Below are positions 7,415-32,489 of a stretch of DNA of 64,000 nucleotides, piece by piece (the stretch's first letter is position 1; each line of letters opens with the position of its first letter). Below the pieces are notes generated by a model, which was not told the DNA's origin, searched no databases, and worked only from the letters and a program-made list of their open reading frames with translations. The position numbers were made by a program, and so were the translations under genes. The stretch is from Arthrobacter sp. QXT-31 (GTDB taxonomy: Bacteria; Actinomycetota; Actinomycetes; Actinomycetales; Micrococcaceae), in the NCBI RefSeq assembly GCF_001969265.1, contig NZ_CP019304.1, positions 992,001 to 1,056,000 on the forward strand, written 5' to 3'.

Positions 7415-7426
7415 ATTGTCAACAGT
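7415..7426. promoter_or_regulatory. GntR/FCD-type operator candidate 1 (ATTGTCAACAGT)
   Basis: Near-perfect copy of the island's 12-bp palindrome. It extends upstream as TGTAAATTGTCAAC, an arm also seen at 15076, 11495 (reverse) and 21946 (reverse). It lies 145 bases upstream of the HAD gene start on the minus strand. Confidence 0.6.
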
Positions 7427-7470
7427 TTGGCGGCCCCCCTTCAGGTCTCGTTAAGCCACCATTTTTCTTT

Positions 7471-7488
7471 TCGTCAATTGTTGACAAT
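7471..7488. promoter_or_regulatory. GntR/FCD-type operator candidate 2 overlapping a -35 box
   Basis: The 18 bases TCGTCAATTGTTGACAAT contain a perfect palindrome ATTGTTGACAAT (7477-7488) and an overlapping one GTCAA-TTG-TTGAC (7473-7485). TTGACA at 7481-7486 would serve as the -35 hexamer, so binding would block the importer promoter. The same 18 bases occur on the minus strand at 18356-18373. Confidence 0.68.
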
Positions 7489-7673
7489 CCTGTTCTGAGG
7501 CGGTTGCATTGGCTTAGATGCGGAGGAGATCCGGATCACAACCCCGCATGAAGCACACCACGTCGGGCGCCGGCCCGGCGTCCACGCAAGGGATATCGGG
7601 CAGCCGGTCCTGCGATATATGCACTCCGTTCTGGCCGATCCAACTCAGCCGGAACCATCCGAAGGGAAGCACC

Positions 7674-8597
7674 ATGAAGACCAGAAACAAAGTCCAGACC
7701 GCAGCCGCAGGGCTCGCCGTCGTATTGGCATTGAGCGCCTGTGGCGGCTCGGCCACTGGGGGCACAGCTACGGGAGATTCCAGGACCTCGAACACTGCCG
7801 ACATCTCCGAGGGCGTCCAGCCTGACGCGGCAGCGGTCAAACTGTTGCCGCAGTCGTACAAGGACAAGGGCGAGCTGACGGTCGCGATGGACCTCCACTA
7901 CCCGCCCACGACGTTCCTCGCGGAGGACAACACCACCCCGATTGGCCTGAACCCGGATGTTGCCCGGCTTGTTGCCAAGAAGCTGGACCTGAAGCTGAAG
8001 TTCGTTGACACGAAGTTCGACACGATCGTCCCAGGCCTGGACGGCGGGCGTTTCGACTTCACCGCCACCACGATGTCCAAGACCGAGGAGCGGCTGCAGG
8101 TGCTGGACATGATCGATTATTTCCGGGCCGGCAACTCCGTGGCCGCTGCCGCCGGGAACCCGCAGAACCTCACCGTAGAGACCCTGTGCGGAAAGAACAT
8201 CGCCGTGACCCAGGGCTCCACCGGGCAGCTCAAGCGCCTCCCGGCCCTCAACGAGCAGACCTGCACCTCCAAGGGACAGCCGGCGATCAACGCCGTGACA
8301 CTGCCCAACGTCCAGGAGGCCCTGACCCAGCTGCACTCCAAGCGGATCGACGGCGTGCTGTATGACACGACCTCACTGGGTTGGGCTGAGAAGCAGCAGC
8401 CAGGTTCCTTCACCATCCTTGGCCGGGTCAATGTCGGTTCGAACGACGTGACCGCGATCGGTGTGAAGAAGGGCTCGGCGCTAACTCCGGCGCTGCAGGC
8501 AGCTGTCCAGTCCGTCCTGAAGACCCCGGAGTACAAGGAGTCCCTGGAGACCTGGGGCCTGGAGTCCGGGGCCATCACCGACGCCAAGCTGAACTAG
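7674..8597 (+). CDS. Family 3 amino-acid-type ABC transporter substrate-binding lipoprotein (copy 1)
   Basis: The 307-residue exported binding protein starts at 7674, chosen because GAAGGGAAG lies just upstream and a lipoprotein signal follows (MKTRNKVQ, hydrophobic run, LALSAC with lipidated Cys23). An upstream extension to 7518 has no signal sequence. The mature part has SBP_bac_3 features: GELTVAMDLHYPP, NPDVARLVAKKL, FDTIVPGLDGGRFDFTATTMSKTEERLQ, and GKNIAVTQGSTGQL. Such proteins capture polar amino acids, opines or related amines outside the membrane. The copy at 15177 is closely similar over the whole length. The ligand is unknown. Confidence 0.9.
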   Translation: MKTRNKVQTAAAGLAVVLALSACGGSATGGTATGDSRTSNTADISEGVQPDAAAVKLLPQSYKDKGELTVAMDLHYPPTTFLAEDNTTPIGLNPDVARLVAKKLDLKLKFVDTKFDTIVPGLDGGRFDFTATTMSKTEERLQVLDMIDYFRAGNSVAAAAGNPQNLTVETLCGKNIAVTQGSTGQLKRLPALNEQTCTSKGQPAINAVTLPNVQEALTQLHSKRIDGVLYDTTSLGWAEKQQPGSFTILGRVNVGSNDVTAIGVKKGSALTPALQAAVQSVLKTPEYKESLETWGLESGAITDAKLN

Positions 8598-8609
8598 CGG
8601 GAGGCCTTG

Positions 8610-9542
8610 ATGGTTACAGCTACTAGAAAAGGAAGTGAAGCAGCGATGGGTAGCATCGATGCAGCCCTGAAGCCGCGGCTTCAGCTTCGGACTCCCGCCG
8701 AGTACGCCGGGTGGGTCCTGAGCATCCTTGTCGGCATCGGGATCCTGACCTCGGTCCTGACCAACCCCAACTTCAGGTGGGACATCGTCGGGAAGTACTT
8801 CTTCGCTGAGTCGATCCTGCGCGGGCTGATGCTCACGATCTTCCTCACGGTCGCGAGCATGGCCCTGGGCACCCTGCTCGGGCTGGCCCTGGCGGTCATG
8901 CGCTCCTCGCGCGTGAAGCCGGTTGCCATCGCGGCCGGTATCTACATCACCTTGTTCCGCGGCACCCCGGTGCTGGTGCAGCTGATTTTCTGGTTCAACA
9001 TCTCCGCCCTGTACCCGAACCTGACCATCGGCATCCCGTTCACCAACATCGGGACTGCGGTGGACACGAACGCGATCATGGGCCCCATCACAGCAGCCCT
9101 GGTTGGCCTGACGCTGAACGAGGCCGCTTATATGGCCGAAATCATCCGAGGCGGTTTCTCGGCCGTGGGCAAGGGCCAGATCGAGGCCGCGGACTCGCTC
9201 GGGATGAGCGCGGGCATGAAGATGCGCAAGGTCATCATTCCCCAGGCGATGCCCTCGATCATCCCGGCTACCGGTAACCAGGTCATCGGCATGTTCAAGG
9301 GAACCTCCCTCGTCAGCGTCCTGGGCGTCGCGGAACTGCTGCAAAGTGCGCAGCTGATCTACGCCCGCACCTACGAGACCATTCCGCTGCTGATCGTCGC
9401 CAGCCTCTGGTACCTGGTGATGACCCTGCTGCTGAGCTACCCGCAGTCCAAGCTCGAGCAAAAATACTCCCGCGCAACCTCCAGGCTTCCCCGCAAAGCC
9501 AAGGCCGTTACGCTGACAGACACGGAAGGTATAGCCCGATGA
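8610..9542 (+). CDS. Amino-acid-type ABC transporter permease (copy 1)
   Basis: This HisM/GlnP-type inner membrane subunit has about five to six hydrophobic segments, the first near residue 25-45 and the next near 65-90, and the cytoplasmic coupling loop EAADSLGMS with [15 protein letters not shown] before it. The ATG at 8610 follows a GGGAGG ribosome site by five bases; a TTG at 8607 is less well placed. The stop overlaps the ATPase ATG by four bases. It probably forms the membrane pore with the ATPase at 9539. Copy 2 at 16114 is highly similar, especially in the last two thirds. Confidence 0.9.
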
Positions 9543-10306
9543 GCACCGACGGAACTATTGTCGCCCGCAAAATCCGCAAGTCCTTCGGACCCAAAACAGT
9601 CCTGAAAGACATCGACCTGGACATCGCCAGCGGCGAGATCTGCTGCATCATCGGCCCCTCCGGTTCCGGCAAATCCACGATCCTGCGCTGCATCAACGGC
9701 CTGGAGACCGTCGACTCCGGAGTCCTGAAGGTCAACGGTGAAGACTTCGGCTACTACGAAACCGACACCGCCTATCACGCCCTGCCGCCCAAGAAACTCG
9801 CCGCCCAGCGCACCCGGGTCGGCATGGTCTTCCAGCAGTTCAACCTCTTCCCCAACATGACCGCCGAGGAAAACGTCATGTCCGGGCCCGTGCTGGTCAA
9901 AGGCGCCGACAAGAAAGCCTCCGCGAAACGGGCACACGAACTGCTCGCCAGTGTGGGCCTTGCCGGGTTCGGGGACTACTACCCCGCCCAGCTCTCCGGC
10001 GGACAGCAGCAGCGCGTCGCGATCGCCCGGTCCCTGGCCATGGACCCCGAGATCATGCTCTTCGACGAACCCACCTCCGCCCTGGACCCGGAAAAAGTCG
10101 GCGAAGTCCTCATGGTCATGCAGGACCTGGCCAAGAAGGGCATGACCATGGTCGTGGTCACCCACGAAATGGGCTTCGCCCGCGAAGTCTCAGACTCCCT
10201 GATCTTCATGGACGACGGCTACGTAGTTGAACGCGGCGACGCCCGGGAAGTCCTGCGCAATCCAAAGGAAGCCCGCACCAAGGCCTTCCTGGACAAGGTG
10301 CTCTAA
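9539..10306 (+). CDS. Amino-acid-type ABC transporter ATP-binding protein
   Basis: The 255-residue ATPase has Walker [10 protein letters not shown] (39-47), Q-loop VFQQFN (98-102), signature LSGGQQQR (152-159), Walker B EIMLFDEP with Glu177, and the H-loop VTHEM near 203. This is the GlnQ/HisP class. It powers import through the permease encoded just upstream. No second ATPase accompanies the duplicated binding protein and permease at 15177-17046, so this subunit may serve both importers. The start overlaps the permease stop (ATGA). Confidence 0.93.
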
Positions 10307-10308
10307 AC

Positions 10309-11442
10309 ATGGACGGAGAACTCGCCGTCATCGGCCTCGGCAGCATCGGAAGCATGGCCCTCTGGCAAGCCTCCCGCCTCACCGACTCGGTCACCGGCTT
10401 CGAAGCAGCAACCCCCGCCCACGGCCGCAGCGCCGTAGGCGGAGACACCCGCCTGTTCCGCATGCTCTACCGCGGCAACCCCGACTACTACCTCATCCTG
10501 GAACGCTCCCGTGCCCTCTGGGCCGAACTCGAAGCCGAAACCGGCCAGAACATCCTCACCCGCTGCGGGGGACTGTCCATCGGAACGAACAACGGCCCCT
10601 ACCTCTCCGCGCTGCTCGACACCACCCGCGCCACCGGCGCCGAGCACCAAATCCTTACCCGCGAAGACATGGCAGAGCGCTACCCCCAGCACAACCTCCG
10701 CGATGACGACATCGCCGTCTACGATCCCCACGCCGGGGCCCTGCGCACCGAACGAGCCGTCACCGCCGCTGTCACCGCCGCGCAGGCGAACGGGGCAACC
10801 ATTCACACCAACACCCCCATTGACAGCATCGAGGAAACCAACGACGGCGTCCTCATCACCTCCGGCAGCAGATCCTGGACGTTTGAGAACGTCATCGTTT
10901 CCTCCGGCGGCTGGTCCCAGCGCCTCATGCCCGACTACCTGAAAACCGCAACTCAAACCAAACGGATCTTCCTGACCTGGTTCCTCGCAAAAAACCCGGC
11001 CGAGTTCTCACCCGACCGATTCCCCATCTTCATCCGGATTTCAGGCGACCGCTCCATGTATGGTGCGCCCGCCGTTGACGGCGCAACTGTCAAGGCAACC
11101 CTGGACGGACGCGGCAAACCCACACCCTCCGCCGACTCCGTCCTCCGGGACCTCACCCCCGGGGAGATCACAGAAACCACCGAAACCGTCACCGAGTTCT
11201 TCCCCGGCCTGCACCCCACCATTGTCCGCACAGACGCCTTCCCCGACCTGTTCACGAAGGACGGAAACCCCCTCCTTGGCCGATTCAGCGAAGTCAGCAG
11301 GATCTACTGCGCCACCGGCTTCTCTGGAGGCGGCTTCAAGAATGCCACTGGCTACGGGGAAATAGCCGCGCACGAGGCCTTGGGCAAACGGCCCTTTGAA
11401 GGCCTGGATTTCGTAAGGCCCCGACGGTACAGGACCAACTGA
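10309..11442 (+). CDS. N-methyl-L-tryptophan/sarcosine-oxidase-like FAD oxidoreductase (copy 1)
   Basis: The 377-residue flavoprotein begins with the FAD motif GLGSIG (9-14). It carries the MTOX/MSOX-family segments GDTRLFRMLYRG, LTREDMAERYPQHNL, GGWSQRLMPDYL and ATGFSGGGFKNATG. Family members oxidise secondary amino acids (N-methyl amino acids) to an imine plus H2O2. The position where classical MSOX/MTOX enzymes hold the covalent-flavin cysteine (C-x-Y-T-x-T-P-D) reads AFPDLFTKDG, with no cysteine, so FAD is probably held non-covalently. It starts 3 bases after the ATPase stop, with AAGGTG as ribosome site. A close paralogue lies at 26499-27674. Confidence 0.85.
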   Translation: MDGELAVIGLGSIGSMALWQASRLTDSVTGFEAATPAHGRSAVGGDTRLFRMLYRGNPDYYLILERSRALWAELEAETGQNILTRCGGLSIGTNNGPYLSALLDTTRATGAEHQILTREDMAERYPQHNLRDDDIAVYDPHAGALRTERAVTAAVTAAQANGATIHTNTPIDSIEETNDGVLITSGSRSWTFENVIVSSGGWSQRLMPDYLKTATQTKRIFLTWFLAKNPAEFSPDRFPIFIRISGDRSMYGAPAVDGATVKATLDGRGKPTPSADSVLRDLTPGEITETTETVTEFFPGLHPTIVRTDAFPDLFTKDGNPLLGRFSEVSRIYCATGFSGGGFKNATGYGEIAAHEALGKRPFEGLDFVRPRRYRTN

Positions 11443-11483
11443 CGCCGACAGTTAGAAGCTGGCTGCGATCGCACTGATCGCAT

Positions 11484-11495
11484 ATTGTTGACAAT
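11484..11495. promoter_or_regulatory. GntR/FCD-type operator candidate 3 before the aminotransferase gene
   Basis: Perfect palindrome ATTGTTGACAAT, followed by TTACAGTT as in the extended arm. It lies 28 bases upstream of the aminotransferase ATG in an 80-base gap. TTGACA at 11488 could again be a -35 element, giving a very short leader. Confidence 0.65.
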
Positions 11496-11522
11496 TTACA
11501 GTTCCTAAGAAAGTATGAAGCC

Positions 11523-12776
11523 ATGGCAACTCTCAGCCCCCTCCTCAAGCAGGCAACTCCGGTGGTCGTAGACCATGCTCTCGGCAGCTGGATCCACGCC
11601 ACCGACGGTAAAAAGTACCTCGATTTCACCACCGGAATCGGCGTTACGAGTACGGGACACTGCCACCCCGACGTCGTAGCGGCAGCCCGCGAACAGGTGG
11701 GCAAGATTGTCCATGCCCAGTACACCACCGTGATGCACAAGCCATTGCTTGAGCTCACCGAAAGGCTGGGAGACTTCCTGCCCTCGGGGCTGGACAGCGT
11801 TTTCTACGCCACCTCCGGCTCCGAGGCAGTGGAAGCCTCCGTCCGCCTTGCGCGGATGGCCACGGGCCGGCCCAACATCATCTCCTTCCAGGGCGGCTTT
11901 CACGGCAGGACGGTGGGCGCTGCCTCCCTTACCACCGCAGGCACCAAATTCCGGTCCGGCTTCTCCCCCCTCATGGGCGGGGTGCACATCGCGCCCTTCC
12001 CGCATTCGTACCGGTACGGCTGGGACGAGGAAACAGCAGTCAACTTCGCACTGAAGGAACTGGACCACCTCTTCCTCAGCATCAGCAGCCCAGCAGACAC
12101 TGCCGGCTTCATCATCGAACCCGTCCTCGGCGACGGCGGCTACATCCCCACTCCCCCGGCGTTCCTGCAGGGCCTGCGGGAACGGGCTGACCGGCACGGC
12201 ATCGTGCTCATCGTGGACGAAGTCCAGGCTGGCGTGGGCCGCACCGGAAAGTTCTGGGGACACGACTGGGCAGGGATTCGCCCCGACGTCGTCATTACCG
12301 CCAAGGGCCTGGCGAGCGGTTTCCCGATCTCGGCCATTGCCGCCTCGGCGGAACTGATGGGCAAGGCCTGGCCCGGCTCCCAGGGCGGCACCTACGGCGG
12401 AAACGCCGTCGCCGCCGCGGCCGGCGTGGCGACCCTCGGCGTCATTGAACGCGAAAACCTGGTGGAGAACGCCCTGCTCCGCGGCGATGAGCTGCGCACC
12501 GGGCTGGAAGGCCTCAAGGCAGACTTTGCGGGAATCGGAAACGTCCGCGGCCGCGGCCTCATGCAAGGCATCGAATTCACCACGGCGGACAACGTCCCTG
12601 ATGCCGCTACCGCCCTGGCCGTCCAGCAGGAAGCCATCAAGGAAGAGCTCCTCCTGCTCACCTGCGGGCCGCACGGCAACGTCATCCGCATCATCCCGCC
12701 CCTCAACGTCAGCAGCGACGAGATCCAGGCAGGGCTGACCAGGTTCACCCAGGCGCTGAAGACGGCCACCTCCTAA
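11523..12776 (+). CDS. Class III PLP aminotransferase (4-aminobutyrate/omega-amino-acid type)
   Basis: The 417-residue enzyme has the class III layout: TSGSEA at 97-102 for phosphate binding, FHGRT (127-131), the cofactor Asp in VDEVQAGVGRTG (Asp232), and the Schiff-base lysine Lys261 in ITAKGLASG. Relatives are GABA, ornithine, beta-alanine or putrescine aminotransferases that move a terminal amino group to 2-oxoglutarate or pyruvate and leave a semialdehyde. The semialdehyde dehydrogenase gene 27 bases downstream fits that product. An operator palindrome lies directly upstream. The precise substrate is not determined. Confidence 0.9.
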   Translation: MATLSPLLKQATPVVVDHALGSWIHATDGKKYLDFTTGIGVTSTGHCHPDVVAAAREQVGKIVHAQYTTVMHKPLLELTERLGDFLPSGLDSVFYATSGSEAVEASVRLARMATGRPNIISFQGGFHGRTVGAASLTTAGTKFRSGFSPLMGGVHIAPFPHSYRYGWDEETAVNFALKELDHLFLSISSPADTAGFIIEPVLGDGGYIPTPPAFLQGLRERADRHGIVLIVDEVQAGVGRTGKFWGHDWAGIRPDVVITAKGLASGFPISAIAASAELMGKAWPGSQGGTYGGNAVAAAAGVATLGVIERENLVENALLRGDELRTGLEGLKADFAGIGNVRGRGLMQGIEFTTADNVPDAATALAVQQEAIKEELLLLTCGPHGNVIRIIPPLNVSSDEIQAGLTRFTQALKTATS

Positions 12777-12803
12777 TCCCCCTACGATCCTTGAAAGCGT
12801 GAC

Positions 12804-14258
12804 ATGAGCTCTTCATTTGACCCCACTGGCCTCCACACCGAGCTGTTCATTGACGGCGCCTGGCAGAACGCCGCCGGCGGCGCCACTTTCCCTGTAGAAA
12901 ACCCGGCCACCCATGAAATCATCGCCCACGTGGCCGACGGCGGGTCCGAAGACGCAGCCCGGGCCATCGAGGCCGCAGGCCGCGCCCAGGCAGAATGGGC
13001 GAAGTCCACACCCCGGGCACGGGCCGACGTCCTGCGCCGCGCCTTTGAGCTGGTTATTGCCAACACCGACCGTCTCGCAGCGATCATGACGGCTGAGATG
13101 GGCAAGCCTTTGGCGGAGGCGAAGGGCGAAGTGGCTTACGGCGCAGAAATGCTCCGCTGGTTCTCAGAAGAAGCCGTCCGCATCGGCGGAGATCAGGCTA
13201 CCTCCGTTGACGGCAAAAACAGGATCATGATCACCAAGGAACCGGTCGGCCCGTGCGTACTGGTCACCCCGTGGAACTTCCCGCTGGCCATGGGTGCCCG
13301 CAAAATCGCCCCGGCCATTGCCGCGGGCTGCACCATGGTCTTCAAGCCTGCCGAGCTGACACCGCTGACGTCCCTTGCCCTGGTTGAAATCTTCAGGGAG
13401 GCAGGACTGCCCGACGGCGTCCTGAACGTCGTGACCACCTCCAGCGCCTCCACAGTTGTCGGACACTGGATGAGCAGCGGCATTGCACGGAAGGTGAGCT
13501 TTACCGGCTCCACCGAGGTCGGCAAGATCCTGCTGCGCCAGGCGGCCGAGAACGTCATGCGCTCCTCCATGGAACTGGGTGGAAACGCCCCGTTCATCGT
13601 CCTGGCCGATGCGGACATTGAAAAAGCCGTGGACGGCGCCATGAAGGCCAAGATGCGCAACATGGGCGAGGCCTGCACCGCTGCGAACCGCTTCTTCGTG
13701 CACCGCTCCGTCATCGAGGAATTCAGCGAGAAGTTCGCCAAGAGGATCTCCGAACTGCAAGTGGGCAACGGCGCACTGGAGGGAACCGACGTCGGACCCC
13801 TCATCGAACAGAAGGGCTTGGACAAGGTTGAGAACCTGGTCAGCGATGCGGTCGCCAAGGGCGCGCGCATCCTGACAGGCGGCAGCCGCCCGGAGGGTCC
13901 GGGATACTTCTACACCCCCACCGTCCTGACCGACGTGCCCCTGGACGCAGATATGATGACTACTGAGATTTTCGGTCCGGTCGCGGGCATTACGCCCTTC
14001 GACAGCGAGGACGAAGTGCTGCGCCTCGCCAACGACACCGAATGGGGCCTGGTGGGCTACGTCTTTACAGAGAGCATGGAAAAGGCCCTGCGCTTCTCCG
14101 CAGACCTGGAAGTAGGCATGGTCGGACTGAACACCGGCCTGGTCTCCAATCCTGCAGCACCCTTCGGGGGCGTCAAGCAGTCCGGCCTGGGACGCGAAGG
14201 CGGCAAGATTGGCATCGATGAATTCCTGGAAACGAAGTACACAGCAGTAGCGGTCTAG
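12804..14258 (+). CDS. NAD(P)-dependent succinate-semialdehyde dehydrogenase-like aldehyde dehydrogenase
   Basis: The 484-residue ALDH has TPWNFPLAMGARK at 155-167, FTGSTEVGK (233-241), general base Glu257 (MELGGN) and catalytic Cys291 in NMGEACTAANR. ACTAANRF and FGGVKQSGLGREGG near the C-terminus are typical of actinobacterial GabD-type enzymes, which oxidise succinate semialdehyde to succinate. Pairing with the class III aminotransferase supports a GABA-shunt-like step. The paralogue at 25046-26497 aligns from end to end with one residue shift. The ribosome site is weak (GAAAG). Confidence 0.9.
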   Translation: MSSSFDPTGLHTELFIDGAWQNAAGGATFPVENPATHEIIAHVADGGSEDAARAIEAAGRAQAEWAKSTPRARADVLRRAFELVIANTDRLAAIMTAEMGKPLAEAKGEVAYGAEMLRWFSEEAVRIGGDQATSVDGKNRIMITKEPVGPCVLVTPWNFPLAMGARKIAPAIAAGCTMVFKPAELTPLTSLALVEIFREAGLPDGVLNVVTTSSASTVVGHWMSSGIARKVSFTGSTEVGKILLRQAAENVMRSSMELGGNAPFIVLADADIEKAVDGAMKAKMRNMGEACTAANRFFVHRSVIEEFSEKFAKRISELQVGNGALEGTDVGPLIEQKGLDKVENLVSDAVAKGARILTGGSRPEGPGYFYTPTVLTDVPLDADMMTTEIFGPVAGITPFDSEDEVLRLANDTEWGLVGYVFTESMEKALRFSADLEVGMVGLNTGLVSNPAAPFGGVKQSGLGREGGKIGIDEFLETKYTAVAV

Positions 14259-14297
14259 AGGGCCTTTAGGCCGAAGAATGAAATGAGGGGGATGTCA

Positions 14298-14990
14298 ATG
14301 GCGGCACCAGAAGGACTGTTTGTCCTGGAAGGAAGACCGACGGCGCAGCTGATCGCCGATCAGCTGCGGGAACAGATCGTCCAGGGGACCTTCCGTCCCG
14401 GACAGCAGATCAATGAGTCTGCAGTGGCCGCCCAGTTGCGGACGTCCAGGGGCCCGCTCAGGGAAGCGCTGCAGCGCCTGTGCCAGGAGGGTCTCCTGGT
14501 CAGCCACCGTAACCGGGGGGTCTTCGTCCTGGAGCTGTCGACCGCCGACGTCGAAGAGATCTACGCCGTCCGGGAGGCGGTGGAACTGGCCGCCTCCAGC
14601 ACCTTGTTGGAAGCCGGGCAGGACCAGATCAACGACACCTGCCGGGTGCTCAAGGAAATCGTCAGGGACATGGCGAAGCACGTTGCCGCGTCCGACTGGC
14701 AGGCGATTGCACGGTTGGACATGCAATTCCACACCACCTTTGTTGCAGGAACGGGCAATACCCGGCTGATCCGTATATACGAGACCCTCGCGGCCGAATC
14801 CAGGATGTGCATACTCAACCTGGAAGTCTCCTACCCCCGCCTGGACGTGCTGGTCCAGGAACATCAGGAACTTCTGGACCTGCTCCAGGCAGGAGACAGA
14901 GAAGGATTGCAGCAGGCCGTCAAACGTCACCTGCAAAAAGCGGTTGAGGATCTCACCGTCACAAGGCAAGACGGGGAAATCACCCTCTAG
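14298..14990 (+). CDS. GntR-family transcriptional regulator, FCD subfamily (copy 1)
   Basis: The protein has an N-terminal winged helix (about residues 10-75: INESAVAAQLRTSRGPLREALQRL, then a GVFV wing) and an all-helical FCD ligand domain with likely metal ligands in DMQFH, VQEHQE and VKRHLQ. Three in-frame ATGs exist (14283, 14292, 14298). GAGGGGG at 14285-14291 is correctly spaced only for 14298. It follows the aldehyde dehydrogenase gene by about 40 bases and is nearly duplicated at 17116. It is a candidate for binding the ATTGTYRACAAT palindromes. Confidence 0.9.
   Translation: MAAPEGLFVLEGRPTAQLIADQLREQIVQGTFRPGQQINESAVAAQLRTSRGPLREALQRLCQEGLLVSHRNRGVFVLELSTADVEEIYAVREAVELAASSTLLEAGQDQINDTCRVLKEIVRDMAKHVAASDWQAIARLDMQFHTTFVAGTGNTRLIRIYETLAAESRMCILNLEVSYPRLDVLVQEHQELLDLLQAGDREGLQQAVKRHLQKAVEDLTVTRQDGEITL
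14345..14367. repeat. 23-bp inverted repeat inside the GntR gene (copy 1)
   Basis: GCAGCTGATC, a 3-base spacer GCC, then GATCAGCTGC: a perfect inverted repeat within the codons for AQLIADQLRE. The identical 23 bases occur in the paralogue at 17163-17185. Confidence 0.7.
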
Positions 14991-15053: not shown

Positions 15054-15080
15054 TGCGTTTCCCACAAAAAGTTTTTGTAA

Positions 15081-16103: not shown

Positions 16104-16113
16104 GGGACACACC

Positions 16114-25002: not shown

Positions 25003-25020
25003 GCGCTGCCTTCCTTGTCG

Positions 25021-25032
25021 ATTGTCGATTAT
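25021..25032. promoter_or_regulatory. GntR/FCD-type operator candidate 7 before the third GntR gene
   Basis: ATTGTCGATTAT, with a second half-site TTGTCG directly 5' of it, lies in the 43-base gap between the aldehyde dehydrogenase stop and the regulator start, 18 bases from the ATG. Its position suits autorepression. Confidence 0.5.
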
Positions 25033-25045: not shown

Positions 25046-26497
25046 TCAGACCGCGATTGCGGTGTACTTGTACTCCAGGAATTCCTCGATCCCGATTTTT
25101 CCGCCTTCGCGTCCAAGTCCGGATTGCTTAACCCCGCCAAACGGTGCCGCCGGGTTGGAAACCAAGCCGGTGTTCAGGCCGACCATTCCAACTTCCAGTT
25201 CCGCCGTGAAGCGCAGTGCCTTGTCCATGCTTTCGGTGAACACGTACCCGACCAGCCCCCACTCGGTATCGTTGGCCAGGCGGAGGACTTCTTCTTCGCT
25301 GTCGAACGGCAGGATCGCCGCCACCGGGCCGAAGATTTCCGTGCTCATCACTTCGGAGTCCAGCGCCACATCAACGAGGACGGTGGGGGTGTAGAAGTAT
25401 CCGGGGCCTTCCGGACGGCTGGCGCCGGTCAGCACCCGTGCTCCCTTGGAGACAGCATCTGCAACGAGGCTTTCGACTTTTTCCACACCTTTGCGGTCGA
25501 TGAGGGGCCCGACGTCGGTACCAGCCGAAGCGCCGTTGCCGACCCGTAGCTCTGACATCTTTTTGGAGAACTTCCCGCTGAATTCCTCGATCACGGAACG
25601 GTGGACGAAGAAGCGGTTTGCGGCTGTGCAGGCTTCCCCCATGTTCCGCATCTTTGCCGTCATGGCTCCCTCTACCGCCTTTTCGAGGTCTGCATCGGCC
25701 AGGACGATGAACGGTGCATTGCCCCCGAGTTCCATTGAGCAGCGCATCACGTTGTCCGCCGCCTGCTCGAGCAGAACCTTGCCAACCTCAGTGGAGCCGG
25801 TGAAGCTGACCTTCCTGGCCACGCCGCTGCTCATCCAGTGATCTACCACGCTGGAGGCCCTGGAGGTCGTGACAACGTTCAACACGCCATCGGGAAGGCC
25901 TGCTTCCCGGAAAATTTCTACCAGGGCAAGGGATGTCAGCGGCGTCAGGGCCGCCGGTTTGAAGACCATGGTGCATCCAGCGGCGACGGCAGGGGCAATC
26001 TTGCGGGCGCCCATGGCGAGCGGGAAGTTCCATGGGGTCACCAGTACGCAAGGGCCAATGGGTTCCTTGGTGACCACGATCCTGGTGTCGCCGTCCAGGG
26101 AGGCTGCGCTGTCACCGCCAATACGGACAGCTTCCTCTGAGAACCAACGGAGCATGTCGGCCCCGTAGGCCACTTCGCCCCTCGCTTCTGCGAGCGGCTT
26201 GCCCATTTCCGCCGTCATGATGGCGGCGAGCCGGTCCGTATTGGCGGTCACCAGTTCAAAGGCGCGCCGGAGAATGTCACCTCGTTCGCGGGGCGTGGAT
26301 TTGCTCCACTCTGCTTGGGCACGGTCTGCTGCCCCGAGAGCCAAGGCAGCGTCCTCAGGACCGCCGTCGGCAACACGTGCAATGATCTCGTTCGTCGCGG
26401 GGTTCTCCACCGGGAAGGTAGCTGAATTTGTTGCCTCTTGCCATACGCCGTCAATGAACAGCTGCGTTTGAAGAGTGGTGGGAAATGAAGTGGTCAT
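25046..26497 (-). CDS. NAD(P)-dependent succinate-semialdehyde dehydrogenase-like aldehyde dehydrogenase (paralogue)
   Basis: The 483-residue protein aligns with the enzyme at 12804 without gaps after a one-residue offset: catalytic Cys290 in NMGEACTAANR, general base Glu256 in MELGGN, FTGSTEVGK, and GLVSNPAAPFGGVKQSG. The start at 26497 follows the stop of the upstream FAD oxidase by one base. A longer open frame to 27001 is antisense-like composition across that oxidase and is not credible. It probably oxidises an aldehyde produced by the neighbouring oxidases or by the aldolase-like enzyme. Confidence 0.9.
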   Translation of the reverse strand: MTTSFPTTLQTQLFIDGVWQEATNSATFPVENPATNEIIARVADGGPEDAALALGAADRAQAEWSKSTPRERGDILRRAFELVTANTDRLAAIMTAEMGKPLAEARGEVAYGADMLRWFSEEAVRIGGDSAASLDGDTRIVVTKEPIGPCVLVTPWNFPLAMGARKIAPAVAAGCTMVFKPAALTPLTSLALVEIFREAGLPDGVLNVVTTSRASSVVDHWMSSGVARKVSFTGSTEVGKVLLEQAADNVMRCSMELGGNAPFIVLADADLEKAVEGAMTAKMRNMGEACTAANRFFVHRSVIEEFSGKFSKKMSELRVGNGASAGTDVGPLIDRKGVEKVESLVADAVSKGARVLTGASRPEGPGYFYTPTVLVDVALDSEVMSTEIFGPVAAILPFDSEEEVLRLANDTEWGLVGYVFTESMDKALRFTAELEVGMVGLNTGLVSNPAAPFGGVKQSGLGREGGKIGIEEFLEYKYTAIAV

Positions 26498-26498
26498 G

Positions 26499-27674
26499 TC
26501 ACGCTTTCGGTAATTGAGGGGCAGAGTATTGGACGGAGGGCTGGCGCGCCTTGAACCGCTCCGGGCGCACGAAGTCCAGGCCCACGAATGACTGCTTGCC
26601 GAGCACTTCGTGCGCAGCGATGTGGCCGAAGCCAGTGGCATTCTTGAATCCGCCTCCGGAGAAGCCTGTGGCGCAGTAGATCCTGCTTGACTCGCCGAGC
26701 CAGCCCAGCAGCGGGTTCCGGTCCTCCGTGTAGAGGTCCGGAAAGGCGTCGGAGCGGACGATCGTCGGAATGAGGCCGGGGAAGAATTCGGTGACGGTTT
26801 CGACAGTCTCGGGGATTTCAACTGCTGAGAGGTCCCGGGGGAAACCATTGGGGTCGGTTGTGACCGTGCCCCGGCCGTCCAAGGTGGCTTTGACGGTGAC
26901 TCCGTCAACCGTGGGTGCTCCGTACATGGAGCGGTCCTCGTACATCCGGCTGAAAGTGGGGAAGTTGTCCGGAGTGAACTGGGCTGCGTCGCGGGCAACA
27001 AACCAGGACAGGAAAACTCTGCGTGTTTCCGTGTGTGCCTTCAGGTAGTCGGGCATGAGCTGCCGGGACCAACCCCCGGAGGCGATGAGGACCTTTCCGA
27101 AGGTCCAGGAGGTGCCTCCTGAGGTGATGACAACGCCGTCGTTGGTTTCCCTGATGCTGCTGACTGGAGTGTTGTTGAGGACCGTTGCCCCGTTGGCCGC
27201 TGCGGCAGCGACGGCTGCCGTTACTGCCCGGTCGGTCCGAAGAACACCGGCGTTGGGGTCGAACACTGCGGAGTCGTCCGCCCTGAGGTTGTGTTGGGGG
27301 TAGCGTTCGGCCATTTCCTCACGGGTCAGGATCTGGTGGGCAGCCCCGTTGATCCGGGTGGTTTCCAGGACGCTGCGGAGGTAGGGTCCATCGGTGCTTC
27401 CGATGGACAGTCCGCCACAACGAGTGAGGATATCCTGTCCGGTTTCTGCTTCGAGCTCCGCCCAGAGGTCACGTGAGCGCTCCAGGATCGGGTAGTACCC
27501 GGGGGTTCCGCGGTAGATCATGCGGAACAGCCGGGTGTCCCCGCCAACGGCGCTGCGTGCGTGTGCGGGAGTGTGTGCCTCGAAGCCGACCACGGAGTCG
27601 GAAAGCCGTGAGGCCTGCCAGAGTGCCATGCTTCCGATGCTGCCAAGCCCAATTACGGCAAGTTTTCCGTCCAT
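26499..27674 (-). CDS. N-methyl-L-tryptophan/sarcosine-oxidase-like FAD oxidoreductase (copy 2)
   Basis: The 391-residue paralogue of the 10309 gene has GLGSIG at 9-14, GDTRLFRMIYRG, LTREEMAERYPQHNL, IASGGWSRQLMPDYL and ATGFSGGGFKNATG. As in copy 1, the classical covalent-FAD cysteine position reads AFPDLYTEDR, without Cys. It carries an extra C-terminal tail (KARQPSVQYSAPQLPKA). An AAGGAGAGG ribosome site lies upstream. It probably oxidises a secondary amine or amino acid to an imine. It sits between a second FAD oxidase and the aldehyde dehydrogenase in the operon. Confidence 0.85.
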   Translation of the reverse strand: MDGKLAVIGLGSIGSMALWQASRLSDSVVGFEAHTPAHARSAVGGDTRLFRMIYRGTPGYYPILERSRDLWAELEAETGQDILTRCGGLSIGSTDGPYLRSVLETTRINGAAHQILTREEMAERYPQHNLRADDSAVFDPNAGVLRTDRAVTAAVAAAAANGATVLNNTPVSSIRETNDGVVITSGGTSWTFGKVLIASGGWSRQLMPDYLKAHTETRRVFLSWFVARDAAQFTPDNFPTFSRMYEDRSMYGAPTVDGVTVKATLDGRGTVTTDPNGFPRDLSAVEIPETVETVTEFFPGLIPTIVRSDAFPDLYTEDRNPLLGWLGESSRIYCATGFSGGGFKNATGFGHIAAHEVLGKQSFVGLDFVRPERFKARQPSVQYSAPQLPKA

Positions 27675-27731
27675 TTGCTTAGAACCTCTCCTTGTTGTGT
27701 TTGAGGTCCAAGTGAAGGACCTGGTTGGTGC

Positions 27732-29138
27732 CTATTCATGAAGTCCCGCGAGCCTGCTGCCGAACCTGGCAAGGAGTGAGGTATGCGTGGAATTCCTGCA
27801 CTCTTCCCATTGATCCGCCAGTCCGAACAGCCGGTACATGCCGTGGACACCCAGCCAACGGATCGGTTCCGGTTCCCATTTCCGTGCGCGGTAGCCGACC
27901 CAGGGAAGTGTGGTGCGCTGCGTCTTCCGTTCGAAAGCCAGTTCCGCGAGAGTCCGCCCGCCCACGTAGGCTGCCGTGACGCCGTGCCCTGCGTATCCGG
28001 TTGAGGATCCGATCCCGGACGCCGGGTCCCAGTTCACCCCGCCGTTCCAGTCACGGGTGACGCCGAGGACCCCGGACCAGGCGTGGTCCACTTCGAACTG
28101 GATGCCAGGGAAGAAGGAGCGGAGCTTGGTGGAGATCAGGTCAATTGTGGACTGGGCAGTTGAACCGGCGCCCCCGGTGCCGGAGCCGTAGCGGTATGGC
28201 ACTCCCCTGCCGCCGATCGCGATGCGGCCGTCCGCTGTGCGTTGGGAGTAGATGAAGGTATGTGCGGAGTCGTTAAGGCACTGCTGCCCGTTCCAGCCAA
28301 TTTGCTGCCACGCCTCCTGCGACAGCGGTTTGGTCACAATCATTGAGGAATTGATCGGTATCAGCGTCCTGCCGCCAAGCAGTGGACCGGAATATCCTTC
28401 GGTGCAGATGAACGTTTTGGCCGCGGTCACCCGCCCGTTTGGCAGGGTGAGGGTCTTGCCGTTGATGCTGCCGACCCGGCTGCGTTCGTAGATGCTCACG
28501 CCCATGGAGGTCAGGGTGTCAGCGAGACCGTAGACGAGTTTGGCTGGCTGGATCCGGGCACAGTGCTTGTAGAAGAGCCCGCCGTGGACGGTGGAGATGT
28601 TGACCCGGCTCTGGAACTCGTCCCGGCCGAGCAGGTGTACCTCATCTTCGGTCACCCCATACTTCAAGTCGGCGTCGCGCCTGGTGACCAGCCGGCCGAG
28701 CCCTGCCCTGGTGTGGGCAGCCACGAGCGCGCCACCTTTATGCTGATCCGCATCAATGCCCTCGGCCTGAAGAATATCCAGGACGGAGTCGACGCCGGCA
28801 ATAAACTCCTGCTGGAAGGCCCGGCTCGCGTCCAGCCCGCCCCCGGATACACGCGCAAACGTGGCGCGGTTTCCTGGAATCATGGCAGACAGCCAGCCGC
28901 CGTTCCGTCCGGACGCGCCGTAGCCTATCTGCTCTGCCTCAAAAACCGCGACCGCAAGCGACGGCTCGAGCTTCTTGGCGAAATAGGCCGCCCACAGGCC
29001 GGTGTAGCCGCCACCGATGATGGCCAGGTCTACTGACCCGTCGCCTGTGAAGCGGGGGTACGCGGGCCTCTTGTCCGCGAGTCCGGCCATCCAGAAGCCG
29101 AGCTCTCCGTTTCGGGGTGCTGCCGCAAGGGCTGTCAT
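27732..29138 (-). CDS. FAD-dependent oxidoreductase, DAO family (PuuB-like, second)
   Basis: The 468-residue flavoprotein has IIGGGYTGLWAAY near residue 40, IGYGASGRNGGWLSAM, ICTEGYSGPL and STGYAGHGVTAAYVGGRTLAEL, typical of DAO-fold amine oxidases of the PuuB / glycine oxidase type. It is only distantly similar to the 425-residue oxidase at 5291 but shares the GRNGG and AGHGV signatures. The C-terminal 60 residues (WVGYRARKWEPEPIRWLGVHG) are typical of the longer PuuB-like subgroup. The ribosome site is AAGGA. Together with RidA and the aldehyde dehydrogenase in this operon it fits amine oxidation followed by imine hydrolysis. Confidence 0.85.
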   Translation of the reverse strand: MTALAAAPRNGELGFWMAGLADKRPAYPRFTGDGSVDLAIIGGGYTGLWAAYFAKKLEPSLAVAVFEAEQIGYGASGRNGGWLSAMIPGNRATFARVSGGGLDASRAFQQEFIAGVDSVLDILQAEGIDADQHKGGALVAAHTRAGLGRLVTRRDADLKYGVTEDEVHLLGRDEFQSRVNISTVHGGLFYKHCARIQPAKLVYGLADTLTSMGVSIYERSRVGSINGKTLTLPNGRVTAAKTFICTEGYSGPLLGGRTLIPINSSMIVTKPLSQEAWQQIGWNGQQCLNDSAHTFIYSQRTADGRIAIGGRGVPYRYGSGTGGAGSTAQSTIDLISTKLRSFFPGIQFEVDHAWSGVLGVTRDWNGGVNWDPASGIGSSTGYAGHGVTAAYVGGRTLAELAFERKTQRTTLPWVGYRARKWEPEPIRWLGVHGMYRLFGLADQWEECRNSTHTSLLARFGSRLAGLHE

Positions 29139-29236
29139 TGTTGTCCTTCTTTATGTGTGAACCGTTGAGCCAATACGACTGCGGGACATCCCCAGCCTTG
29201 GCTGGCTTAGATGTGCCTGCGCCGGATGGCGTGGTG

Positions 29237-29971
29237 TCAGAAGGCGGTGTAGCCGCCGTCGACGGGGAGGACCGCTCCTGTGATGTAGGAGGATTCCGGT
29301 GACGCCATGAAAAGTATGGCGTCGGCGATCTCTTCGGGCGTTGCGAGGCGTTGGAGCGGGATCTGGCCCTCCCGCTCGCGGCGGTAGGCCTCGGGGTCGG
29401 GCCTCCGCTGGAACGATGCCTCGATGACGGGAGTGACGGTCAGTCCTGGCGCAACAACGTTGACGCGGATGTTGCGTGAGGCCCACTCGATAGCAGCTCC
29501 CTTGGCGAGCATGATGAGACCGCCCTTAGCCGCGGAGTACAGGACTTCGCCGGGTTTGCCAACCAGTCCCAGTCGTGAACTGACGAGGACGAACGAGCCG
29601 CCTGTGGCGGGCATCAGTGGTGCGAAATGCTTCATCATCAGGAAGGCACTGAGCAGGTTGCTGTGGATTACGTTCTTCGCATCCTCATACGCCATCTCCG
29701 TCAGGGGGCCGCTGACCTGCAGTCCGTGGTTAAGGACGACGACGTCCACGGTTCCGAACGATTCGGCGGCCTGGCGGGCCAGGCCTTCGACGAAGGCCTC
29801 ATCGTTGAGATCTCCAGGGACGTACAGGTCGCCGGGCTGGGCGGTATCAAGTCGCTCCCTGCGGCCCGTGAGCAGCAGTCGGGCGCCTTCGCGTCGGAAG
29901 CGGGAACTCACTGCTTCCCCGATTCCGCTGCTGGCACCGGTTATAACGGCAGTGGACTTATCAAGCCTCAT
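29237..29971 (-). CDS. SDR-family NAD(P)-dependent oxidoreductase
   Basis: The 244-residue classical short-chain dehydrogenase has cofactor motif TGASSGIG (12-19), catalytic Ser in FVLVSSR, YSAAK as the Tyr-Lys pair, and the C-terminal SSYITGAVLPVDGGYTAF. The usual NNAG structural motif is replaced by LNHGLQ. Arg39-40 in TGRRER after the second strand favours NADP(H), though this is an inference. The ribosome site AAGGAG is eight bases upstream. Its role is probably oxidation or reduction of a hydroxy/keto intermediate of the pathway. Confidence 0.88.
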   Translation of the reverse strand: MRLDKSTAVITGASSGIGEAVSSRFRREGARLLLTGRRERLDTAQPGDLYVPGDLNDEAFVEGLARQAAESFGTVDVVVLNHGLQVSGPLTEMAYEDAKNVIHSNLLSAFLMMKHFAPLMPATGGSFVLVSSRLGLVGKPGEVLYSAAKGGLIMLAKGAAIEWASRNIRVNVVAPGLTVTPVIEASFQRRPDPEAYRREREGQIPLQRLATPEEIADAILFMASPESSYITGAVLPVDGGYTAF

Positions 29972-30041
29972 GGGGTCACTCCTTGGTACGGTGAATCGCT
30001 TGGGTTGCGGGCTTTGGGACGGGATGTCCGTCAGGGACGGC

Positions 30042-31151
30042 TCAGCTCAGGAATCCGCGCGCATCCACCCGCCACCGCTCCAGCGATGCGCCCGCGCTGT
30101 CCGTGACAATCAATTCCTCAAAATTGATGACAACCGGGCAGACGTGGTTCGGCACGATCGGAAGCACCGTGCCGACGCTCGGGCGGAAATCGCCAGCCGG
30201 CAGCGGCAGAAACCCGTGATACTCGTTGAGCTTGGAGAGAATGGCCGACGTGCCGGGCACGGCCCCGTAGCCAATCTCGGGGCTGCCTTCTCGGCTGAGT
30301 GCTTTGCTGCCTACATCGAGGATGACCTGATCAGGAACCCAGCTGCTGACCACCGTGCCGGCGACGAACAGAGCAATTTGGTCTTCAGTGCAGGCCCCCA
30401 GCCGGGCGTTGTTCAAGTCATTGAACACATATTCTCCGGGCCGGATTTCGGTGATCACGCTGCTGGCGGTGGAGAACTCCACCGTCGGGGTGGAGCCCGC
30501 ACTGACCACCTCGGGGCTGATGCCCACCGCGCTGAAGCTGCGCACCGCTGTGGTGAGCGCGGCCTCCTGGTCCAGTGCCGCGGCCTTGCGGGCGTCCCGG
30601 TTGGAGCTACCGTGACCTGGATACGTGAAGATGCCCACCGGGACGAGTCCGCGTCTGCGGGCGGCAGCTGCGAGGTCGCCTGCGATCTCGGGCGGCGCAC
30701 CGGAGCGACGAGCACCGCAGTCCACCTCGATGACAACCTGCAGCCGTTCGGCTTCAGTGCCCATCGCGTCAGCAAGGGCATCGATAGCCGCGAAATTGTC
30801 GACGCCGACCCGCAGCCGGGTGGTGACGGCAAGTTTGCGCAGCCGCAGGCCTTTCGTTCCCGAAGGCCAGATCGGGTAGGCGATGAAGATATCGTCGAAG
30901 CCCGCTGCGGCGAAGACTTCGGCCTCACCAACGTTTCCTGCGGTAATTCCGACAGCCCCGGCCTTGACCTGGCGCCAGCCGATTTCCACACACTTATGTG
31001 TTTTTACGTGCGGCCTGACGTCGAGGTTGTGCTGGGCGGCGAAGCCCTGCATGCGATCGATGTTGTCCTGCATCACGTCGACCAGAATGATCGGCGCAGG
31101 GGTGTCAATTCGCCCGGCGAGGGCGTTGAGTGCTCCCTGAATACGGTTCAC
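30042..31151 (-). CDS. D-threonine-aldolase / D-serine-dehydratase-like PLP enzyme (DSD1 type)
   Basis: I prefer the GTG at 31151 (VNRIQGALNAL) because GAGGAG lies about six bases upstream; an ATG at 31166 would contain that ribosome site and has none of its own. The protein has an alanine-racemase-like N-terminal barrel with the PLP lysine in RPHVKTHK, EVDCGARRSG, FTYPGHGS and SAGSTPT. A C-terminal domain carries PNHVCPVV, whose His and Cys are metal ligands in D-threonine aldolases and DSD1. The family splits beta-hydroxy-D-amino acids into glycine plus aldehyde, or deaminates D-serine. Adjacent RidA would handle enamine/imine products. Confidence 0.86.
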   Translation of the reverse strand: MNRIQGALNALAGRIDTPAPIILVDVMQDNIDRMQGFAAQHNLDVRPHVKTHKCVEIGWRQVKAGAVGITAGNVGEAEVFAAAGFDDIFIAYPIWPSGTKGLRLRKLAVTTRLRVGVDNFAAIDALADAMGTEAERLQVVIEVDCGARRSGAPPEIAGDLAAAARRRGLVPVGIFTYPGHGSSNRDARKAAALDQEAALTTAVRSFSAVGISPEVVSAGSTPTVEFSTASSVITEIRPGEYVFNDLNNARLGACTEDQIALFVAGTVVSSWVPDQVILDVGSKALSREGSPEIGYGAVPGTSAILSKLNEYHGFLPLPAGDFRPSVGTVLPIVPNHVCPVVINFEELIVTDSAGASLERWRVDARGFLS

Positions 31152-31190
31152 GCTTGTTCTCCTCATGAATTTGGGCCAGCACGTCCGCCC

Positions 31191-31661
31191 CTAAACGGCT
31201 GTGCAGATCATCTGGATCTCCACAGGAGTGTTCAGCGGCAGTCCGGCGACGCCGATTGCGGTGCGGGCGTGCCGTCCGTTGTCGCCCAACACTTCGATGA
31301 GCACTTCGCTGGCCGCGTTGGCGACCTGCGATTGCAGGCCGAAGTCCGGTGTACTGGCCACGAAGACCAGCATCTGCACGATCCGGACCCGCTCCAGATT
31401 TCCTACCGCCTGCACGGCGGCCGCGAGGCAATTGACCGCGGTATGGCGGGCGAGGTCCTGCGCCGTTTCCAGCCCGACGTCCCTGCCGACGATCCCTGTG
31501 CCCAGCAGGACACCGTCCTTGTAGGGCAGTTGGCCGGAGATGTGGATGCTGGAATCCACCGCTCGGTGGTGCACGAAGTAGGGGTTGTCCGCGAGGCTGG
31601 GAAGGTCCAGGCCGAGGGCCCGGAGCCGGTCCAAAGCGGAGTCCGCCGTTGCGAGGCTCAT
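31191..31661 (-). CDS. RidA-family (YjgF/UK114) enamine/imine deaminase
   Basis: The 156-residue protein has the Rid fold: FVHHRAVDSSIHISGQLPYKDG, GIVGRDVGLETAQDLARHTAVNCLAAAV, and the C-terminal HARTAIGVAGLPLNTPVEI with the conserved arginine that binds the substrate carboxylate. RidA proteins hydrolyse reactive 2-imino or enamine acids made by PLP or flavin enzymes. An operon with two FAD oxidases and a PLP lyase is a fitting context. It lies 39 bases upstream of the aldolase-like start and 17 bases after the HAD stop. Confidence 0.9.
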   Translation of the reverse strand: MSLATADSALDRLRALGLDLPSLADNPYFVHHRAVDSSIHISGQLPYKDGVLLGTGIVGRDVGLETAQDLARHTAVNCLAAAVQAVGNLERVRIVQMLVFVASTPDFGLQSQVANAASEVLIEVLGDNGRHARTAIGVAGLPLNTPVEIQMICTAV

Positions 31662-31678
31662 TGCCGGTCAGGTCCTTC

Positions 31679-32368
31679 TTACGAGGCAGCCGGTCGTGGC
31701 AGGCCAAAGAGGACGGGGAGATCGGCGATGTCGGTGATCCGCTCGTAGCCGAGCCAGTGCTCGTCGTGCTCGAAGCCCCGGTCAACGTACACCTTGTTCT
31801 TAATGCCCATGATGGCTGCAGGCCTGTGGTCATACATCGGGCTCGCAGAGACATGCACGATCTCGTCCGGTGTTACGCCAAGCTTGTCGAACATGTACTC
31901 AAAGGCTCCGAGTCGCGGCTTGTACATGCCCATCTGCTCGGCGCTGATGATGACGTCGAATGGGGCCTGGAGGTTCGCCGCAAGGCGCACAGCGTGGGCG
32001 GTGTCACTGTTGGTGATGATGACCAACGGAACTTCCTCAGCCAGCCGGTTCAATGCCTCGGTCACACCCGGGTACGGGCCAAAGGACGGGATGTTCTCAT
32101 AGACTGCCCGCGCGTCGGCGGCACGGAACTCGAGGCCTACCCGGCGCGACGCGCGTTCCATGGAGTCGGCAACGATCTGGTGGAACGGCTTGTATTCGCC
32201 CGTGCACTCGTCGATGCGGTACGCCTTGCAGGCCCGCAGGTACTCGTCCGCGATCTCTGCCGGCAGCCGGTCGCCCAGGACTTCGCGGATCGCGTCGTTG
32301 ATTGCGAACTTGATCAGCGTTCCGTTCATGTCGAACGTAGCGAACTTCGGTTTCGTTTCGAATGCCAT
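31679..32368 (-). CDS. HAD-superfamily hydrolase annotated as haloacid dehalogenase type II (second, variant motifs)
   Basis: The 229-residue protein has motif I FDMNGTL (Asp13; Asn where dehalogenases have Tyr), motif II ITNSD (Thr119-Asn120), motif III MYKPR (Lys150) and motif IV VSASPMYD (Asp180). It shares the extra residue in motif IV and the YKPRxxAFEYM block with the HAD at 6596, but motif I departs from L-2-haloacid dehalogenases. A substrate other than a haloacid is likely. It is the first gene of an eight-gene minus operon with three operator palindromes within 125 bases upstream, and a GGAGG ribosome site. Confidence 0.8.
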   Translation of the reverse strand: MAFETKPKFATFDMNGTLIKFAINDAIREVLGDRLPAEIADEYLRACKAYRIDECTGEYKPFHQIVADSMERASRRVGLEFRAADARAVYENIPSFGPYPGVTEALNRLAEEVPLVIITNSDTAHAVRLAANLQAPFDVIISAEQMGMYKPRLGAFEYMFDKLGVTPDEIVHVSASPMYDHRPAAIMGIKNKVYVDRGFEHDEHWLGYERITDIADLPVLFGLPRPAAS

Positions 32369-32392
32369 TTTTCCTCCACATTATCTTGGTCG

Positions 32393-32404
32393 ATTGTCGA
32401 CGAC
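32393..32404. promoter_or_regulatory. GntR/FCD-type operator candidate 8
   Basis: ATTGTCGACGAC, 25 bases upstream of the HAD ATG on the minus strand; the left half is perfect and the right half matches at four of six positions. Confidence 0.5.
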
Positions 32405-32448
32405 ACTTCCACGAGCTTGTCGATAGCTGCTTACGAGGAGTGCCGTCG

Positions 32449-32460
32449 ATTGTCGACAAT
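32449..32460. promoter_or_regulatory. GntR/FCD-type operator candidate 9 (perfect palindrome ATTGTCGACAAT)
   Basis: A perfect 12-bp palindrome centred 86 bases upstream of the second HAD operon. It has the highest symmetry of all copies in the window and is the best guess at the optimal site. Confidence 0.68.
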
Positions 32461-32477
32461 AGTCGCCCTACCTGTAG

Positions 32478-32489
32478 ATTGTCAACAGT
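32478..32489. promoter_or_regulatory. GntR/FCD-type operator candidate 10 (ATTGTCAACAGT)
   Basis: Identical to the site at 7415-7426 and 29 bases from the perfect palindrome, about three helical turns. This allows cooperative binding on one DNA face. Confidence 0.6.

Follow-up and report, generated by a model that had tools for sequence, protein, structure and literature searches.

Putative operators of FadR-subfamily GntR regulators, built of a palindrome and a third half-site, in a catabolic island of Arthrobacter sp. QXT-31

A 64,000-nucleotide stretch of Arthrobacter sp. QXT-31 (NZ_CP019304.1, positions 992,001 to 1,056,000; hereafter the window, numbered from its first letter) contains a catabolic island in which ten 12-bp near-palindromes are found. 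We propose, with a probability of roughly three in four, that these sites are operators of the FadR-subfamily (FCD) GntR regulators encoded in the island, each consisting of a palindrome and a third half-site, GntR1 and GntR2 being predicted to act on sites of one flavour (A) and GntR3 on sites of another (B). An initial annotation, made from the letters alone, had reported three GntR/FCD regulators in the island. The domain scan confirmed this, as PF00392 and PF07729 were matched above the gathering score, placing the proteins in the FadR subfamily, by GntR1 (14283..14990, + strand), its 80% identical paralogue GntR2 (17050..17811, +) and GntR3 (24340..25002, -), which is 33% identical to GntR1. 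The same annotation had read the sites as one shared operator defining one regulon. The rarity of the motif, its conservation at orthologous genes and its co-occurrence with the regulators give strong support to an FCD-type operator and coordinated control; the single operator gives way to two flavours, different regulators and a third half-site.

All ten 12-mers were found where they had been reported. They match ATTGTYRACAAT exactly at 7477, 11484, 18356 and 32449, with one mismatch at 7415, 21931 and 32478, and with two at 15081, 25021 and 32393. Four of them share the TGTAAATTGTYRAY arm (7415, 15081 and, in reverse, 11484 and 21931), and 18 bases are common to 7471-7488 and the reverse of 18356-18373, as had also been reported. 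All ten are intergenic. Their description as lying upstream of catabolic operons requires two amendments, since the site at 25021 occupies the 43-bp gap before GntR3 itself and that at 11484 lies in the SolA1/GabT gap, within an operon-like run. At up to two mismatches, the 64-kb window contains 12 sites, namely the ten above, one in coding DNA (30123) and another, at 52478, beyond the island. A first-order Markov model of the 2,732 intergenic bases of the island predicts 0.167 intergenic sites at this threshold, compared to 10 observed, and 0.007 at up to one mismatch. Judged by the 12-mer alone, any single one of the three two-mismatch sites could be due to chance; as predicted operators they stand on their position, third half-site and conservation. 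Pattern searches of the 5,041,568 bases of the genome, with the pattern read backwards as control, found exact ATTGTYRACAAT in five places (control 0), four of them in the island, and the motif at up to one mismatch in 10 places (control 1), seven of them in the island. The motif is rare and clustered in the island, rather than common at unrelated or coding positions. Of the remaining three places, that at 4,662,289 is exact; the other two have one mismatch, that at 2,641,945 overlapping three possible frames and that at 3,567,451 falling within an open reading frame.

In relatives, the corresponding genes are preceded by such sites as well. A contig scan for GntR1 relatives yielded 22 loci, 21 from Arthrobacter (one on plasmid pHiyo8-1) and one from Rhodococcus koreensis. 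For the aligned rows, L109-L111 were dropped as duplicates of L117 and L125, L115 and L156-L161 are absent, and matches beginning after query residue 25 were excluded; L115 and L156-L161 were added for the gene counts that include misses. A site was present within 320 bp of HAD1 in 17/17 genes, and the HAD1-SBP gap contains two sites 61-75 bp apart in the 14 loci showing both at up to one mismatch (48 bp in L138). ATTGTTGACAAT was found without mismatch 39-40 bp before GabT in 19 of the 21 genes of 85-100% identity, and no site was seen before three distant matches (27-36% identity). The cupin gene is preceded by a site in 8/8 genes, R. koreensis included, and the HAD2 promoter has a B site in 8/8 cases. 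The 12-mer part of the GntR3 site was retained in 6 of the 7 genes with an N-terminus. One locus, L137, has GntR1 and no site. Regarding the FAD/Fe-S dehydrogenase, a site precedes one gene of three, that of the window, and none was found before the two relatives examined. The coordinated control of importers, oxidases, cupin and Fe-S dehydrogenase that had been suggested is weakened on this last point, since the site at 21931 has no counterpart in those two relatives, and control of the dehydrogenase is predicted from this genome alone. R. koreensis keeps GntR1 together with the HAD1, SBP, GabT and cupin sites; its 10.3-Mb genome contains five exact 12-mers, of which the locus holds two, and 24 places when one mismatch is allowed (control 1), of which it holds four. 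In Hiyo8, 10 of 14 places at up to one mismatch (control 5) lie on contig C2, identified by its coordinates as the L138 plasmid. Several genes of the island on this plasmid, pHiyo8-1, were matched only piecewise by tblastn, which suggests transfer and decay. Elsewhere in the R. koreensis genome (L134; G198:C3:3938309-3956929), one-mismatch sites with TTGTCGACAA-type cores form a cluster, perhaps another FCD regulon.

Alignment of the sites revealed a third half-site one 7-bp step outside the palindrome. In 10/10 window sites a GT lies four bases before the palindrome on one side, for which the island's own GT and AC frequencies give a chance of about 1e-10. This GT occupied one offset in 89 of 91 aligned rows, and any other 5' offset in at most nine; since the rows of a class come from related species, the 91 cannot be counted as independent events, and for each class the side of the third half-site was picked. 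The GT is lacking from one HAD2 row of L136 and from the L138 row of the SBP1 class. At HAD1 the palindrome and third half-site carry 1.43 and 1.45 mean bits per column, with flanks at 0.62 (5') and 0.14 (3'); the values for HAD2 are 1.40 and 0.83, with flanks at 0.16 and 0.22. The SBP2 and GntR3 sites, which are weak palindromes, retain the third half-site. Each predicted operator thereby covers 19 bp. Those of flavour A lie in the HAD1 promoter (7408..7426, +; ATTGTAA followed by ATTGTCAACAGT; 15 comparative rows including the window), in the SBP1 promoter (7470..7488, +; TTCGTCA followed by ATTGTTGACAAT; 14 rows), before GabT (11484..11502, -; ATTGTTGACAAT 39 bp from the start codon, with its third half-site) and before the cupin gene (18356..18374, -), and a weaker one lies before SBP2 (15074..15092, +; TTTGTAA followed by ATTGTCGATGAT; 11 rows). 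A one-mismatch operator with the window as its single row separates the FAD/Fe-S dehydrogenase and a GDE gene (21931..21949, -). Predicted B operators precede GntR3 (25014..25032, +; CTTGTCG followed by ATTGTCGATTAT) and occupy the proximal (32386..32404, +) and middle (32442..32460, +) positions of the HAD2 promoter, where an A-like operator is distal (32471..32489, +); the last three are represented in the comparative rows.

The sites of the island fall into two flavours which appear tied to different regulators, A to GntR1 and GntR2 and B, with the motif TCGACAATCGAC, to GntR3. The centre of the 65 A rows (HAD1, SBP1, GabT, cupin and SBP2) is CA in 33, TG in 20 and CG in 12. The 18 B rows, which at HAD2 were selected by their CG centre, have a third half-site ending in CG in 18/18 cases, compared to 4/65 A rows and 2/8 other HAD2 rows. 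Rows were assigned to the SBP2 class on their first bases and to the GntR3 class on a distance below 40 bp; in the latter all 19 bp are identical in 5/5 rows. The HAD2 promoter carries both flavours: in 7 of 8 cases it has a pair of CG-centred sites close to the gene and, upstream of these, one or two other sites, and that of L138 has a single CG-centred site.

To what extent regulators and sites occur together was determined in 198 genomes of the same genus, Arthrobacter, taking as regulator relatives the matches at E <=1e-50 and counting genomes irrespective of kinship. Exact 12-mers were absent from 121 genomes, single in 20 and present twice or more in 57. GntR1 relatives were found in 44 genomes and GntR3 relatives in 24, all within those 44. 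Two or more exact 12-mers were present in 40 of the 44 GntR1 genomes versus 17 of the 154 others, and 15 of these 17 encode GntR4, an FCD regulator found in 17 genomes which is 38% identical to GntR1 and has the same SRGPLREA helix. Either GntR1 or GntR4 is encoded by 55 of the 57 genomes with two or more 12-mers versus 5 of the 141 with fewer; 19 of the 20 single-12-mer genomes have neither. It might be argued that a regulator encoded elsewhere reads the sites and that those of the island have other targets. In its own genome GntR1 has 32 matches at E <=0.001, the same 12-mer accompanies GntR4 in other Arthrobacter, and two genomes have the sites with neither known regulator. We nevertheless hold this to be very improbable: no relative of GntR4 was found in the window genome at 1e-50, GntR1 and the sites occur together in 40/44 genomes, and three of the four exceptions are GntR1 genes outside the importer-oxidase-aminotransferase operon. 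In G022, GntR1 lies by an SSADH fragment and the tartrate-dehydrogenase-side genes, with no operon importer, oxidase or aminotransferase; in G054 and G148, the match begins at residue 44-55 and no operon was seen in the examined stretch. The fourth, G134, has the operon with two one-mismatch sites. As to GntR4, its loci (L105 and L106 in G129, L107 and L108 in G002) contain several ATTGTYRACAAT sites, another importer and catabolic genes, and in G129, and partly in G002, its neighbourhood includes relatives of GabT, SSADH and the FAD/Fe-S dehydrogenase. The ATTGTYRACAAT palindrome seems to serve a sister regulon under GntR4 in other Arthrobacter.

The B motif followed GntR3. TCGACAATCGAC occurred twice or more in 23 of 24 GntR3 genomes versus 6 of 174 others. 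In the sole exception, G147, GntR3 is reduced to residues 85-215, with no DNA-binding part, and no HAD2 operon was seen in the examined stretch. GntR3 is not needed for the 12-mers, as at least two of them occur in 16 of the 20 genomes that encode GntR1 but lack GntR3. These counts bear on the alternative that all three regulators read one operator interchangeably and that the flavours are mere drift. The closeness of the recognition helices and the mixture of A and B features in the SBP2 sites speak for such a reading. It is unlikely, given that TCGACAATCGAC is present twice or more in only 2 of the 20 GntR1-only genomes, and given the difference between B and A rows in the CG end of the third half-site. 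The recognition helix itself is SRGPLREA in GntR1 and SRSPLREA in GntR3, with Gly or Ser after the conserved SR, a residue which we tentatively take, by FadR numbering, to be position 39 in the scheme of Suvorova and colleagues. According to their study, position 39 correlates with the central operator bases (PMC4494728); the Gly/Ser difference would fit the difference between the A and B centres.

Several observations weigh against the assignment of the sites to the island regulators, or against its division into flavours. GabT of L115 and of L157 has no site although a GntR1 relative is nearby, and GntR3 of L138 has no site of its own. L117, L119, L120, L128, L131 and L133 have an exact 12-mer after the last GntR gene and no cupin match; there the 12-mer may serve another client. 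G059 (five exact 12-mers) and G158 (two) have no GntR1 or GntR4 at 1e-50, their best GntR4 matches being 35-39% identical. GntR3 never occurs apart from GntR1 in the sample, which precludes a separate test of GntR3, and regulators and sites share an accessory island, so that their co-occurrence is partly common inheritance. Some flanks are fairly conserved (1.36 bits for GabT 5', 0.84 for SBP1 3', 0.91 for SBP2 3' and 0.73 for cupin 3', with palindromes at 1.23-1.66). Finally, SBP2 sites, counted as A, have a CG centre as in the B flavour, and the selection of HAD2 rows by this centre favours the B class.

Under the proposed assignment, the FCD regulators would most likely be repressors, relieved by a pathway intermediate, presumably of amine or amino-acid type. 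A sites in the promoters of HAD1, SBP1, GabT, SBP2 and the cupin gene would be bound by GntR1 and its duplicate GntR2. The B sites of HAD2 and of the GntR3 gene itself would be bound by GntR3, and at HAD2 the A-like sites upstream would let both regulators act; each operator would comprise a palindrome and a third half-site one 7-bp step out. TTGACA is the -35 consensus of sigma-70 promoters. ATTGTTGACAAT contains this hexamer, as do several A sites, and a protein bound there would block RNA polymerase. At HAD1, TTGACA-N18-TANNGT is present in 12/15 rows, and at the cupin gene the operator is followed by TGCTAGG[AG]T in 7/7 rows. On this arrangement, promoter occlusion appears the likeliest mode of repression; the FCD regulator PrpR of P. 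aeruginosa is a repressor (PMC9765439). One could instead regard the motif as mainly a strong -35 element copied by operon duplication and not as a regulator site, in view of the TTGACA within ATTGTTGACAAT and of the duplicated importer and GntR segments of the island. This is scarcely credible: TTGACA is absent from the CG-centred sites, constraint on the full palindrome and the third half-site exceeds that on the flanks in most classes, only five exact places exist in 5 Mb, and the sites persist at unlike promoters of relatives. Beyond simple occlusion, a more elaborate scheme can be put forward tentatively, although we doubt it. In it, three half-sites spaced at 7-bp steps would make up the functional operator, a second dimer being recruited beside the first; the duplicated FCD regulators would have divided this operator into two specificities, distinct at the centre and in the third box; and the HAD2 promoter would integrate both, so that two linked catabolic operons, spreading together (chromosome, pHiyo8-1, Rhodococcus), would be induced in order.

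These features can be compared with known systems, as far as the consulted portions of the cited papers go. PrpR (PA0797) of P. aeruginosa is an FCD GntR repressor of the 2-methylcitrate operon with a predicted 12-nt motif, ATTGTCGACAAT, and it binds DNA upstream of its own gene in gel shifts (PMC9765439). The island likewise combines FCD GntR regulators with a 12-nt palindrome, and the site at 32449 matches ATTGTCGACAAT exactly. PrpR differs in regulating propionate catabolism; no 2-methylcitrate gene, to which a PrpR orthologue would be linked, was seen among the annotated island proteins (the permeases, ATPase and SBP2 being unscanned). FadR-subfamily operators are described as TKGT/ACMA palindromes, with a 2-nt GT/AC spacing in some groups and weaker extra boxes 7-12 nt from the centre (PMC4494728). 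The island has an operator of this definition (here TTGT-N2-ACAA) near its regulator genes, and resembles those operators in palindrome type, 2-nt spacing and extra half-sites; it differs in the extra box, which hardly varies here and, in the SBP2 and GntR3 sites, has been conserved better than one arm of the palindrome. The principle of extra half-sites is already known, as Suvorova and colleagues reported weaker ones (PMC4494728). NanR of E. coli is also a GntR-type repressor on more than two repeated half-sites, binding being predicted here; there, three dimers occupy a (GGTATA)3 repeat, whereas the present sites have a palindrome plus one repeat at a 7-bp step (PMC8012715). Atu1419 of Agrobacterium fabrum is an FCD repressor which, similarly, has two palindromes in one promoter region, and its tetramer loops DNA; its site is a 10-mer, ATGTATACAT, and the part consulted describes no third half-site (PMC7797058). 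A literature search with the exact string ATTGTCAACAAT found no paper, that with ATTGTCGACAAT gave four, of which the one on PrpR was relevant, and among the matches listed for the exact strings TTGTCAACAAT and TTGTTGACAAT none was about GntR operators. A query on Arthrobacter GntR regulons or operators with amino acids matched only a Streptococcus paper. The predicted regulon is new; the kind of control is known and ordinary, similar operators and extra half-sites having been published (PMC9765439, PMC4494728). It supplies an uncharacterised Arthrobacter pathway for an amine or amino acid with predicted regulators and testable sites, and it offers a well-aligned natural set in which to study the use of extra half-sites by FCD regulators and the separation of operators between duplicated ones.

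The initial annotation had bounded the regulon by 25 kb. The exact site at 4,662,289, 3.6 Mb from the island, lies about 110 bp before a truncated HAD1 paralogue of 164 residues, followed by genes for an APH-type phosphotransferase, a class III aminotransferase and an SBP 71% identical to SBP2. Arthrobacter sp. NtRootA1 (L112) has this module directly before the HAD2 operon, with the same site and a HAD1 relative of full length. Given this arrangement and the exact site of the 4.66-Mb module, the regulon probably extends past 25 kb to that site; its restriction to a single regulon is further loosened by the presence of the same 12-mer with a different regulator in other Arthrobacter. The phosphotransferase and aminotransferase genes of the 4.66-Mb module match parts of PRK06148, like its split halves (L011 9411-13681).

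The first part of the island comprises HAD1, of the haloacid dehalogenase type II family (6596..7270, -), an amino-acid-type ABC importer (SBP1, permease and ATPase; 7674..10306, +; SBP1 start placed by inspection), and a SolA1-like FAD oxidase, a class III, GabT-like aminotransferase and an SSADH-like dehydrogenase (10309..14258, +). A second importer, SBP2 and permease (15177..17046, +), is named by likeness to SBP1 and its permease. Beyond it are encoded a protein with an EutQ-like cupin domain (17918..18340, -; PF05899 above the gathering score), a YdiJ-like FAD/Fe-S dehydrogenase far below the family cut-off (18819..21902, -) and a second catabolic run of HAD2, a BhcC-like aldolase, an SDR, an FAD oxidase, SolA2 and SSADH2 (25046..32368, -). 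A tartrate dehydrogenase (2549-3706) scored above its cut-off, and SolA1 (256.6) just below that for N-methyl-L-tryptophan oxidase (257); the importer and aminotransferase family matches are generic and give no specific substrate. Taken together, the importer type, the DAO-type FAD oxidases, the class III aminotransferase and the SSADH-like, HAD, YdiJ-like and tartrate dehydrogenase proteins point to an amine or amino acid as substrate. Santhopine was considered, as NtRootA1 carries the locus, and dropped: the text seen of PMC8262997 makes no mention of the locus, and "GntR" and "haloacid" are absent from the paper as a whole. Two runs of SolA-like oxidase, SSADH-like dehydrogenase and GntR gene (10309-14990 and 24340-27674) make the island halves resemble diverged copies. 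A GGTTGCATT stretch, common to the SBP1 (7477-7520) and SBP2 (15081-15125) promoters downstream of the operator and kept in many relatives, is a possible -10 region.

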